Below, one piece after another: positions 15,417-17,867 of a DNA stretch of 41,969 nt. Within the stretch, counting starts at the first letter, position 1. Every line of letters begins with the position of its first letter. The position numbers and the translations under genes are program-made. The notes beneath the pieces were generated by a model. The model searched no databases, was not told where the DNA came from, and saw nothing but the letters and a program-made list of their open reading frames with translations. The DNA is taken from IMG/VR virus record IMGVR_UViG_3300032236_000430, positions 1 through 41,969 of that record; one strand, written 5' to 3'. The stretch comes from a virus.

Positions 15417-16628
15417 ATGCCAACTTCAACCGAAGTCCATTGCGGTAATTGCGACATAGTAATTGCCGTTGGCGAACGATACAAAGTGAGGGTCGGTGGT
15501 CAAGGTGCTACCGTCAATCAACGCTGGTGCTCAGATTGTACTTCATCTGCTACTCGCAAGTGTAATGAGTGTAATACCCGTTACAGTACCTGCGACGATA
15601 GTGCTGACGATAACTTAATCATTGTCGAGCGTGGATATGGCGATCGCCGTTCTATCTACTGCTACTTCAACGATTGCTATATTGACCATGTCTGGTTCTG
15701 CCCAAGAGATAACACACCCAACCTCATGGGTAGTTCATTTTGTACGGATTGCCGTACAGATATAGACGGTAATGTTCAGCGTTGCCGTTGCGGTGGTGGA
15801 TCTGAGCGTGAGCCAGTTCACCAATACAACTGCGAACCTAACCTCGTGTTTCATGGTGAGTCTGATGAGGGGCTATTCATGGGCTTCGAGTTAGAGACTC
15901 AGGTGTCCAACACAAACATTCGCGAGGCTTCGCTATTCGCTATGGAAGCACTCCAGCGACCCGAGATCGCCCAACTCAAGAACGACGGCTCGATCGGTGG
16001 TGGCTTCGAGATCGTAACCCAGCCTCATACCTACGAAAAGTATCGTGATAACACCGTCTTGTGGGAGACTATCGAGACCCTGCGTAAACGCTTCGGCGCA
16101 CGATCGTGGGATAGTGAGACTTGTGGACTTCATATCCATATCTCTCGCAAAGCCTTTACCAACGGTCGGCACACGCACCGCTTCATTGAGTTCATCTATC
16201 GCAACTCAGACATGATGATGAAGTTCGGCGGTCGCAAGTCTAGTTATGCCCGCTTCAATGATGTGTGGGGCTTCGACGAGTACGACAAGCCGATCTTCAC
16301 GCTCGAAGGCAAGTCCAACGGTGGTGATGAGATACGCGGTGGCGAGAAGTATACCGCCGTCAATACTCTCAAGCGCGACACGCTGGAGTTACGCTTCATG
16401 CGTGGCACTATGAATACGCAAGGCGTCAAGGCTGGCTTAGGTCTAGCCCACGCTATGGTTCAGTACACTCGGACACTCAATGACTCCGAGGCTGATTGGT
16501 ACAACTGGCAAGGCTTCGTGGACTATGTGAACGGTATACCGTACATGTACCCTGAGCTAATCGATCGTCTGCCCCAAGTACCAGCACTTGTCCTATCCGA
16601 ACTCGAACACTCTCGAATCGACGCCTAG
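15417..16628 (+). CDS. Predicted amidoligase with N-terminal zinc-finger-like region
   Basis: A 403-residue protein. Residues 1-140 hold many Cys in CxxC pairs (CGNC, CSDC, CNEC, CTDC, CRC), probably binding two or more zinc ions. The rest matches the amidoligase family of the glutamine-synthetase/COOH-NH2 ligase fold: GFELET at 156-161, NDGSI at 189-193 and FEIVTQP at 197-203, CGLHIHIS at 236-243, and LELRFMRGT at 323-331. The Glu and His residues are expected to hold Mg-ATP, activating a carboxylate before an amine attacks. The substrate is unknown. A class II glutamine amidotransferase follows 12 bases after the stop, which could supply ammonia. The ribosome site AAAGGA precedes the ATG, and an operator-bearing promoter drives the pair. 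Confidence 0.85.
   Translation: MPTSTEVHCGNCDIVIAVGERYKVRVGGQGATVNQRWCSDCTSSATRKCNECNTRYSTCDDSADDNLIIVERGYGDRRSIYCYFNDCYIDHVWFCPRDNTPNLMGSSFCTDCRTDIDGNVQRCRCGGGSEREPVHQYNCEPNLVFHGESDEGLFMGFELETQVSNTNIREASLFAMEALQRPEIAQLKNDGSIGGGFEIVTQPHTYEKYRDNTVLWETIETLRKRFGARSWDSETCGLHIHISRKAFTNGRHTHRFIEFIYRNSDMMMKFGGRKSSYARFNDVWGFDEYDKPIFTLEGKSNGGDEIRGGEKYTAVNTLKRDTLELRFMRGTMNTQGVKAGLGLAHAMVQYTRTLNDSEADWYNWQGFVDYVNGIPYMYPELIDRLPQVPALVLSELEHSRIDA
15742..15757 (+). promoter_or_regulatory. Palindrome variant inside the amidoligase gene
   Basis: GTACGGATTGCCGTAC has perfect 6-bp half-sites with a different centre. It falls in codons of the zinc-finger-like region, so it may be chance or a secondary binding site. 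Confidence 0.4.
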
Positions 16629-16640
16629 AAAGGAGTCAGC

Positions 16641-17606
16641 ATGTGTCTATTAGTCGTGTGCGACGCACACTCAACACCGACAGAGGAAGAACTGTTACAA
16701 GGCGCTTGCCGTAATCCTGACGGGTTCGGTTTCGCTATCATGGCAGGCGACAAGATTATTTCCGAGCGCACTATGAGCGCAAAGAAATCTATCCGTCGCT
16801 TCCTAGAGTTGCGAGCGCAGTATCCCGAAGCGTATGCGCTATGGCATTGCCGTATCGCTACCCACGGAGTCAAGAACGAAGGGAATTGCCACCCATTTGC
16901 GGTCGGTGGCGATACTCAGACTTACTTGGCTCACAACGGTATGTTGTCCCTGCCTATGGCAGATGACGACCATCGCTCAGACACTCGGTACTTTGCCGAG
17001 GAAGTCTTGCCCTCAATGGGTGGGGTATCTGCGCTCGACGACCCAGCCTTATTCCACATCTTAGAGAAGTGGTCTACGGGTAGCAAGATCGTTGTGCTTA
17101 CGGTAGATCCTGCCGCTAAGTTCAACCTCTACATACTCAACGAGAAGGCTGGCGAGTGGGATACCGAGGGCGTGTGGTGGTCTAACACCTATCACCGACC
17201 TACCAAGACCTACTACGACAACGACTGGCGTGGCTCATCATGGCGCAAAGACGACGCGTTCTATGACACCCACACTTATGACTACAAGACAGGCGTATAC
17301 CTGCCTAAGTCTAAAGAGGCGGTGGTTCACGCCCCAAAAGAACTTACGACGGGTACTACGACTGGTAATGTCTACGACCTATTCAGTGATGAGTGGGAAG
17401 GCGAGGAGTTGTACCTATGCTCGTGGTGTTCAGCCACGCTTACTATCGACACGGCTACCAAAGAAGGCGGTTGCCCTAATTGTAATCTATGTCTAGACTG
17501 TGGCGATGCCGCAGGCTTCTGCCTGTGTTACCTGCCACCAACTAAAGATTACTCCTATTCTCATGGGAGTGATAAGTACCAAACCAAATCAACCAACAAG
17601 AAATAA
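16641..17606 (+). CDS. Class II glutamine amidotransferase-like protein
   Basis: A 321-residue protein that starts Met-Cys, placing the N-terminal nucleophile Cys at position 2 as in Ntn-type (class II) glutamine amidotransferases. Supporting motifs are NPDGFGF at 25-31, HCRIATHG at 69-76, NCHPF at 82-86, HNG at 98-100 and SDTR at 113-116. The enzyme would hydrolyse glutamine and release ammonia for a partner. After the catalytic domain comes a Tyr/Trp/Asp-rich linker, then a zinc-ribbon-like Cys cluster at about 257-300 (CSWC, CPNC, CLDC, CLC). There is no synthetase domain fused, so the upstream amidoligase is the natural partner. AAAGGAG lies five bases before the ATG. Confidence 0.85.
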   Translation: MCLLVVCDAHSTPTEEELLQGACRNPDGFGFAIMAGDKIISERTMSAKKSIRRFLELRAQYPEAYALWHCRIATHGVKNEGNCHPFAVGGDTQTYLAHNGMLSLPMADDDHRSDTRYFAEEVLPSMGGVSALDDPALFHILEKWSTGSKIVVLTVDPAAKFNLYILNEKAGEWDTEGVWWSNTYHRPTKTYYDNDWRGSSWRKDDAFYDTHTYDYKTGVYLPKSKEAVVHAPKELTTGTTTGNVYDLFSDEWEGEELYLCSWCSATLTIDTATKEGGCPNCNLCLDCGDAAGFCLCYLPPTKDYSYSHGSDKYQTKSTNKK

Positions 17607-17618
17607 GGAGCAACACCT

Positions 17619-17867
17619 ATGACCAACAGCCAAGCAATCATCGAAGCATACCTCGTTACCGCACAAGAGAGCCTCGATACAATCGCCGATATCCTCGCCG
17701 ATGAACCAGCCGCGCATATCCTTAAAGCCGTTAAGGGTAATGATCGCTTCAAGGATACATCTACTTGGGTATCACTGCCTAACGGCAAGTATCAGCACCT
17801 TCAGTCAGGCAAGATCACATCTGCCTCACGACTCTCGGGTTACACTGAGGTTGCTTACACCTTCTAA
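17619..17867 (+). CDS. Small protein in amidoligase operon (82 aa)
   Basis: An 82-residue acidic-to-neutral protein behind AGGAG with an eight-base gap. The N-terminal half is helical (QAIIEAYLVTAQESLDTIAD); the C-terminal half looks like a small beta domain (WVSLPNGKYQHLQSG) ending GYTEVAYTF. No family was recognised. As the third gene of the amidoligase/amidotransferase unit it could be a partner or even a protein substrate, but nothing in the sequence proves it. Confidence 0.65.
   Translation: MTNSQAIIEAYLVTAQESLDTIADILADEPAAHILKAVKGNDRFKDTSTWVSLPNGKYQHLQSGKITSASRLSGYTEVAYTF

Follow-up and report, generated by a model that had tools for sequence, protein, structure and literature searches.

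Three linked genes for a predicted amidoligase, a glutamine amidotransferase and a small companion protein in an actinophage genome

The virus record IMGVR_UViG_3300032236_000430, analysed here over its whole length of 41,969 nt (the window), carries three closely packed genes on its + strand. The first encodes a predicted amidoligase (AL), the second a class II glutamine amidotransferase (GA) and the third an 82-residue protein (T); gaps of 12 bases separate AL from GA and GA from T. Phage genes for the first two enzymes have been annotated as pairs for more than a decade, and the literature examined offers only hypotheses about their function. A clade with cultured relatives that infect the abundant freshwater order 'Ca. 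Nanopelagicales' keeps the three-gene version, whose obligate third gene gives a new handle on the substrate.

The first-pass annotation of this DNA described the three open reading frames (ORFs) accurately and proposed that the two enzymes form an ammonia-fed amide-ligating system, with T among the candidate acceptors. Its families, catalytic residues, AL-GA link and shared regulation stand in the analysis below; T as the acceptor is not favoured. The coding features are:

15417-16628, + strand: AL, predicted amidoligase of 403 amino acids (PF12224; Pfam match and 69-row alignment)
15441-15752, + strand: N-terminal Cys-rich domain of AL, probably multi-zinc, residues 9-112, with up to 12 conserved Cys
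15861-16625, + strand: predicted catalytic domain of AL with glutamine synthetase (GS) fold, residues 149-403 (AlphaFold model against YbdK, glutamate-cysteine ligase, GS and Dop)
16641-17606, + strand: GA, class II glutamine amidotransferase of 321 amino acids by profiles and alignment, starting MC, with Cys2 as nucleophile
17418-17531, + strand: C-terminal Cys-rich ribbon of GA, residues 260-297, with eight Cys (alignment)
17619-17867, + strand: T, 82-residue companion with a predicted N-terminal helix and small beta domain (relatives, model, dN/dS)

The predicted ligase and glutaminase

AL matches PF12224 (Amidoligase_2) over residues 195-269 with 26.7 bits, above the curated cut-off of 22, and 65 of 66 aligned relatives match the same family. 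Longer matches are made to the PHROG profiles phrog_16683 (E 4.7e-24) and phrog_2443, 'amidoligase enzyme' (E 5e-10). In all 69 rows of the AL alignment G156, E158, E160, D190, S192, E198, G237, H239, H241 and S243 are kept, as are R244, N316, E324 and R326; we take the conserved acidic, His and Arg residues to be equivalents of the metal ligands of GS. The AlphaFold model of AL, for which 66 related sequences were used (mean pLDDT 85.3, pTM 0.74), places residues 149-403 on YbdK with Z 13.0 and rmsd 4.2 over 228 residues, on a plant glutamate-cysteine ligase with Z 12.3, on glutamine synthetases with Z 10-12 and on Dop with Z 10.7. Because the model aligns with YbdK, glutamate-cysteine ligase and glutamine synthetases, AL is predicted to be an amidoligase with a GS/carboxylate-amine ligase fold, in keeping with the first-pass assignment of family and fold. 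Foldseek finds YbdK with E 1.8e-5, its TM-scores in general being modest (0.29-0.36 by query length); when AL and YbdK were compared by hhalign, the alignment was confined to the region of the GxELE motif (probability 12%).

The window's GA falls just below the curated Pfam cut-offs (GATase_6, 25.7 against 27 bits; GATase_4, 22.6 against 23), which is a matter of search threshold and no biochemical feature; at E<=0.001 GATase_4 is matched by 63 and GATase_6 by 62 of 65 aligned members. Compared with solved structures, the GA profile finds the glutaminase domains of GlmS and PurF (best E 4.5e-6), and the family was aligned with GlmS 1xff. Cys2, R71, T74, G76, N82, H84, H98, N99, G100 and D114 are present in all 65 rows, and H75 of the R-x-A-T-H-G motif in 64. 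In two relatives GA begins with ATT (L004:4845-4847 and L005:6179-6181) after a Shine-Dalgarno-like AGAAGG, so that Cys stays at position 2; the following in-frame ATG is 44 codons further downstream, and a start there would drop the catalytic Cys. Judged from its sequence, GA belongs to the class II (Ntn) glutamine amidotransferases, and it has the Cys2 nucleophile and the ribbon that had been noticed. A loss of catalytic residues was looked for in both alignments and none was seen. By family membership GA would release ammonia and AL would form an amide at the expense of ATP, and this ligase-plus-glutaminase chemistry is probable.

The same enzymes can be read differently. AL might join a gamma-glutamyl group or another amino acid to a small molecule, with GA acting as a gamma-glutamyl amidohydrolase and supplying no ammonia. 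EgtA and EgtC of ergothioneine synthesis, a gamma-glutamylcysteine ligase and an amidohydrolase from one operon, are a ligase-hydrolase precedent. The nearest structural neighbours of AL are indeed carboxylate-amine ligases, YbdK and glutamate-cysteine ligase; class II amidotransferase folds include amidohydrolases, and the conserved residues of GA would bind any gamma-glutamyl group. One account places the amidotransferase of a related phage cassette among degradation genes, in the passages available (PMC5498523). Against this stand the absence of other recognised genes of thiol or ergothioneine type among the proteins scanned and the very tight coupling of AL to GA, which suits a two-subunit enzyme. 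We regard the small-molecule reading as unlikely, if the strongest of the alternatives.

Both enzymes also carry a conserved Cys-rich module. The Cys columns of AL are present in 62-68 of 69 rows, the window's protein having Asn at column 99, and the domain gives only LIM-like matches, all weak (best E 0.06). In the GA ribbon C260, C263, C278, C281, C284, C287, C294 and C296 are each at least 90% conserved. Such modules might recruit a protein target, with AL acting, as Dop and PafA do, on a carboxylate of a host protein, of Pup or of a phage protein. Directly behind YbdK and its relative, Foldseek lists Dop (9cku, E 1.1e-4) and PafA (4bjr, 9e-4). GS and glutamate-cysteine ligase match AL equally well or better, however, and the fold alone gives no substrate; moreover, AL-GA pairs occur in Methylophilales phages as well, and Methylophilales are not known to have pupylation. 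Protein modification seems less likely still than ligation to a small molecule. Nucleic-acid binding proteins, too, often have Cys-rich ribbons, and phages commonly hypermodify their bases, so phage DNA might be protected by an amide placed on a nucleobase or on a precursor of the nucleotides. Among the proteins scanned, which represent part of the ORFs, there were no thymidylate-synthase-like, TET-like or 7-deazaguanine enzymes, and we consider this the least probable of the readings weighed here.

Linkage and the third gene

Searches led by GA and by AL confirmed 514 and 587 stretches, and the best 80 of each were inspected; these lists are biased to close relatives, have many contigs in common and count partial genes at contig ends. 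AL lies directly upstream of GA in 80/80 loci of the first list, and GA directly downstream of AL in 80/80 of the second. The gap between them runs from -1 to 15 nt in all 64 loci with the trio. Further afield, adjacent pairs were found in Marvin, MEP402, ctgrD200, the human-faecal phage records MT839723 and MT835576, three mycobacterial plasmids and a metagenome-assembled genome (MAG) of Spirochaetia; of 11 distant contexts opened, a subset of all distant matches, nine keep the pair. The survey of neighbours thus bears out the coupling that had been read from adjacency in one genome. Two pairwise comparisons gave dN/dS values of 0.18-0.35 for AL, GA and T, which are therefore functional genes and not chance ORFs. 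No fusion among the three was seen in 238 AL-, 269 GA- and 236 T-matching ORFs, many of them from overlapping loci. Adjacency retained across many unrelated backgrounds supports a functional link between AL and GA.

Cellular homologues were considered as a guide to the substrate and rejected: 25 of 27 loci on genome contigs have GA only at the thresholds used, and one of the two with the pair (L246, L247) resembles these phages. That one, L246 (RFQY01000240.1, binned as Rhodobacteraceae), is a 3.3-kb contig with AL and a partial GA that shows 68% identity to its counterpart in the window; it probably strayed into the bin from an actinophage. In the Spirochaetia MAG the genes next to the pair (L247:3462-5696) look RadC- and methylase-like by eye, and the pair is possibly on a mobile element. 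The plasmid pairs (L278, L279 and L280) lie on molecules of 144-156 kb in Mycobacterium intracellulare, Mycobacteroides abscessus and Mycobacterium paragordonae, where the amidotransferase is annotated as 'glucosamine 6-phosphate synthetase' or is absent from the annotation.

The third gene behaves differently inside and outside the clade. When loci with the same GA core were collapsed into 70 groups, T directly followed GA in 64, which are all 64 distinct relatives of this clade with sequence at that place; of the remaining six, three are contigs that end inside or at GA and three (Marvin, MEP402 and ctgrD200) are without T even at E<=10. The other distant contexts gave no T match at E<=0.05. 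A search led by T (best 80 of 197) had GA adjacent upstream in 76 loci, the other four contigs beginning at T; AL came next in 69 of the 76, and the other seven end early. In that search T was never found without the pair. Judged by gene order it is an obligate companion within this clade, and this is the strongest new point of our analysis.

Values of dN/dS for T itself, 0.35 and 0.20 in the two pairs, indicate purifying selection, and by this measure T is a real, selected gene family. Its model (pLDDT 90.8, pTM 0.59) has a 25-residue helix followed by a small beta domain. Across 63 rows A37, R43, F44, S48, W50, H60, G64, R71 and L72 are invariant, and the median net charge of the last 50 residues is +4. 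Pfam and PHROG hold nothing significant for T, and a sequence search of the PDB gave nothing convincing; BFVD contains one clear match, an uncharacterised phage protein with 39% identity. A fold assignment by Foldseek was rejected (best E 0.24), and an SH3 domain, the best VIA-align result (Z 4.8, rmsd 2.8, 47 residues), is too weak to name the fold. Marvin gp107, also of 82 residues, was rejected as a homologue for want of an HMM match at E<=10. No description of T was found in the literature searched, and the available passages of the paper on the related phages E7 and F5 (PMC10202952) contain no match to 'amido'.

Could T be what AL modifies? In favour of a dedicated acceptor or carrier protein, T is linked to the pair in this clade as tightly as AL is to GA, and K36 and K45 are each conserved to at least 90%. 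Its C-terminal residue, on the other hand, is not fixed (A, P, G, F, C, R, L, Q) over the 63 sequences and there is no invariant Asp or Glu; both speak against a carboxylate donated by T. Distant pairs also do without it. For these reasons the acceptor role that the first-pass annotation had entertained for the 82-residue product is improbable. Equally improbable in our estimation is the bolder version, a self-contained tagging or carrier system in which T is modified or used as a carrier by a GA-fed AL. If true, it would give widespread freshwater actinophages a system with the logic, not the sequence, of Pup with PafA and Dop.

Promoter region and genomic setting

The non-coding features of the locus are:

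15308-15336, + strand: sigma-70-like promoter of the trio, TTGACA-17-TAAGAT, 10/12 matches
15373-15388: palindrome GTACGGTATTCCGTAC, 37 bp after the -10 box, in the 5' untranslated region of AL
16529-16544: further copy of the palindrome, within AL near its 3' end and some 100 bp ahead of GA; also in L002, L004 and L005
17923-17938: palindrome copy just after T, ahead of the next gene (17953)

All three genes lie in a + strand block (13.7-20.3 kb) set between the - strand terminase/portal side and the - strand sigma/replication side. The best promoter-like sites of the block are 15308-15336 and 14650-14678; over the region as a whole such sites number 10, with 8.2 expected, and do not exceed chance. 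At both of these sites a 16-bp palindrome (GTACGG-4-CCGTAC) follows the -10 box by 37-38 bp. Eight copies, starting at 13678, 14556, 14716, 15373, 15742, 16529, 17923 and 20299, all lie within 13678-20314, and the rest of the 42 kb has none; the 16 both-strand matches compare with 0.42 expected and with none in 100 shuffles. Four relatives (L002, L003, L004 and L005) have a promoter with 9-10 of 12 matches at the same place, and promoter and palindrome precede AL in all five genomes compared, at a spacing of 31-44 bp. The palindrome is identical in L002 and becomes GTATGG-4-CCATAC at matching places in L003, L004 and L005, both half-sites having changed together, as expected of operators that track their regulator. 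Taken together, the palindromes resemble a set of operators that a single regulator would read. That one promoter and its downstream palindrome stand ahead of AL, and that the genes are tightly spaced, agrees with the shared regulation proposed earlier.

The window is that of a phage, as had been supposed: besides a terminase, a portal and a major head protein it encodes proteins of replication, a sigma factor, a WhiB-like protein and an Amidase_2 endolysin. An exact direct terminal repeat of 109 nt (1-109 and 41861-41969) suggests that the genome is complete. The term actinophage is borne out by the WhiB match (profile search, E 6e-9) and by the nearest terminase records in the phage collection, OX376640 and OX376641 (46%), which belong to phages E7 and F5 (LanE43-AprE7 and LanE43-AprF5). 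Both were isolated on 'Ca. Planktophila' LanE-43, according to the passages available (PMC10202952).

Downstream of the trio, genes for WhiB, a secreted transglycosylase-like protein and an FmdB-like protein are found in 57/57 eligible loci. The transglycosylase-like gene (18188-18637), whose secreted product has a PHROG transglycosylase match and no Pfam match, lies at most 1.05 kb after T on the same strand in all 57. Other neighbours in the window turn over: the 17953 and 18595 genes are each kept in 5/57 loci, the 13795 gene in 4/44 and the 14750 gene in 23/44. In E7 and F5 WhiB, the transglycosylase-like gene and FmdB are all present, and AL, GA and T are absent (E<=1); the trio is therefore present or absent as a unit. 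On this gene content it is an optional cassette in a WhiB-transglycosylase-FmdB backbone.

A proposed glutamine-fed amidating enzyme and its relatives

We favour, tentatively, a single account of these observations: AL, GA and T would together be a glutamine-fed, ATP-dependent amidating enzyme with a target in the cell wall. Taken whole, this best explanation falls a little short of an even chance, and its parts differ in strength. The analysis shows the three genes, their folds and unbroken catalytic residues, their linkage, the selection on them and a promoter-like site of their own; the complex, the passage of ammonia and the carboxamide product are deduced from these, and the wall target and the part played by T are deduced with less weight. 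GA would hydrolyse glutamine and supply ammonia; AL would use ATP to convert a carboxylate to an acyl phosphate and would then turn the activated group into a carboxamide. T would be a clade-specific accessory subunit, an adaptor or a regulator, of the AL-GA complex; its membership in that complex is somewhat favoured. The likeliest target may be a carboxylate of a host cell-wall peptide or its precursor, and a wall so changed during infection could exclude superinfecting phages or protect against lytic enzymes. A wall peptide is preferred because amidation of the wall by a ligase with a glutaminase is established for MurT-GatD (PMC3267633) and because authors have read the same types of enzyme in this way in other phages (PMC5498523, PMC10580990); in the passages of these papers available, the wall role of the phage pairs is published opinion, not experiment. 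The wall target is possible and more doubtful than the place of T in the complex.

Several observations weigh against this account. No gene of the cassette names a substrate. The two enzymes can part company: Clostridioides phage AR1086-1 has AL without an adjoining GA, its next gene being RlaP-like, and in Bifidobacterium phage BA720P3 no AL could be recognised to go with GA. None of the more distant AL-GA pairs examined has T, which is therefore not needed for the core chemistry. Evolutionary distances correlate at 0.77-0.85 within the trio and at 0.70-0.82 with the backbone transglycosylase, which makes the linkage within the clade largely vertical; the trio correlations are not clearly above those with the backbone, and a mirror-tree argument for T in the complex does not discriminate. 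Nor does the secreted transglycosylase count as support for a cell-wall target, since E7 and F5 have the gene without the trio and it belongs to the backbone.

The phage pair of amidoligase and amidotransferase, and a proposed role for it at the cell wall, are already in print in the sources available. As far as our searches show, three things are new: a third gene family that is obligate in this clade, the behaviour of the trio as an optional cassette and the operator-bearing promoter region. Available passages of PMC5705681, PMC7824862, PMC6802176 and PMC7881722 added nothing on function.

How does the trio compare with known systems? With Dop and PafA, the enzymes of depupylation and pupylation, the likeness seen lies in the fold of AL. 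Another parallel is the cassette of phiEco32, RIO-1, PSA-HP1, LUZ24 and tf, for which the available passages propose wall modification against superinfection (PMC5498523, PMC3890496, PMC3517423). Cassettes of the phiEco32/RIO-1 type likewise place an amidoligase and a glutamine amidotransferase in the early or replication region, but they add three enzymes to these: another amidoligase, one of ATP-grasp type and a gamma-glutamyl cyclotransferase. Of these extra enzymes, GGACT/AIG2 (PF06094) was matched neither in the window's own genome (0/1) nor in ten related records, some of them fragments (0/10), with a control matching 9/14; COOH-NH2 ligase PF14395 had no match in the own genome, its control matching 0/14; and PF14243, the sole ATP-grasp family tried, had none there either.

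MurT-GatD, as the passages available describe it, is encoded by two co-transcribed genes whose products, a ligase and a glutaminase, amidate peptidoglycan glutamate (PMC3267633), and as amidation of a wall carboxylate it is a possible working model for the trio. The folds are different: MurT is Mur-ligase-like and GatD CobB/CobQ-like, whereas the window's proteins have a GS fold and a class II Ntn fold. Among phages, PF12224 amidoligase followed by PF13522 amidotransferase is reported for MEP401 and MEP402 of OM43 (Methylophilales) and for more than 30 metagenomic genomes, in a paper whose available passages refer, on wall modification, to Iyer 2009 (phiEco32) and to Mageeney 2012 (Marvin) (PMC10580990). 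The MEP402 proteins are 24% (AL) and 27% (GA) identical to the window's; unlike those of the window, the two genes overlap and T is lacking.

A further pair is that of Marvin, a Mycobacterium phage (Marvinvirus). Its gp105 and gp106 are an adjacent amidoligase and class II amidotransferase on one strand, 30% and 35% identical to AL and GA, with the same catalytic residues and a C-terminal Cys ribbon in GA. They differ in that the Marvin amidoligase is longer, with a different C-terminal extension, and in that the next gene, gp107, is no T homologue. In GenBank (JF704100.1) gp105, the amidoligase, is labelled 'glutamine amidotransferase domain protein'; this label of Marvin-type phages is apparently a mislabel shared with the neighbouring gp106. 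Found in phages of Mycobacterium smegmatis, the Marvin pair offers a genetically tractable route to the two-gene core.

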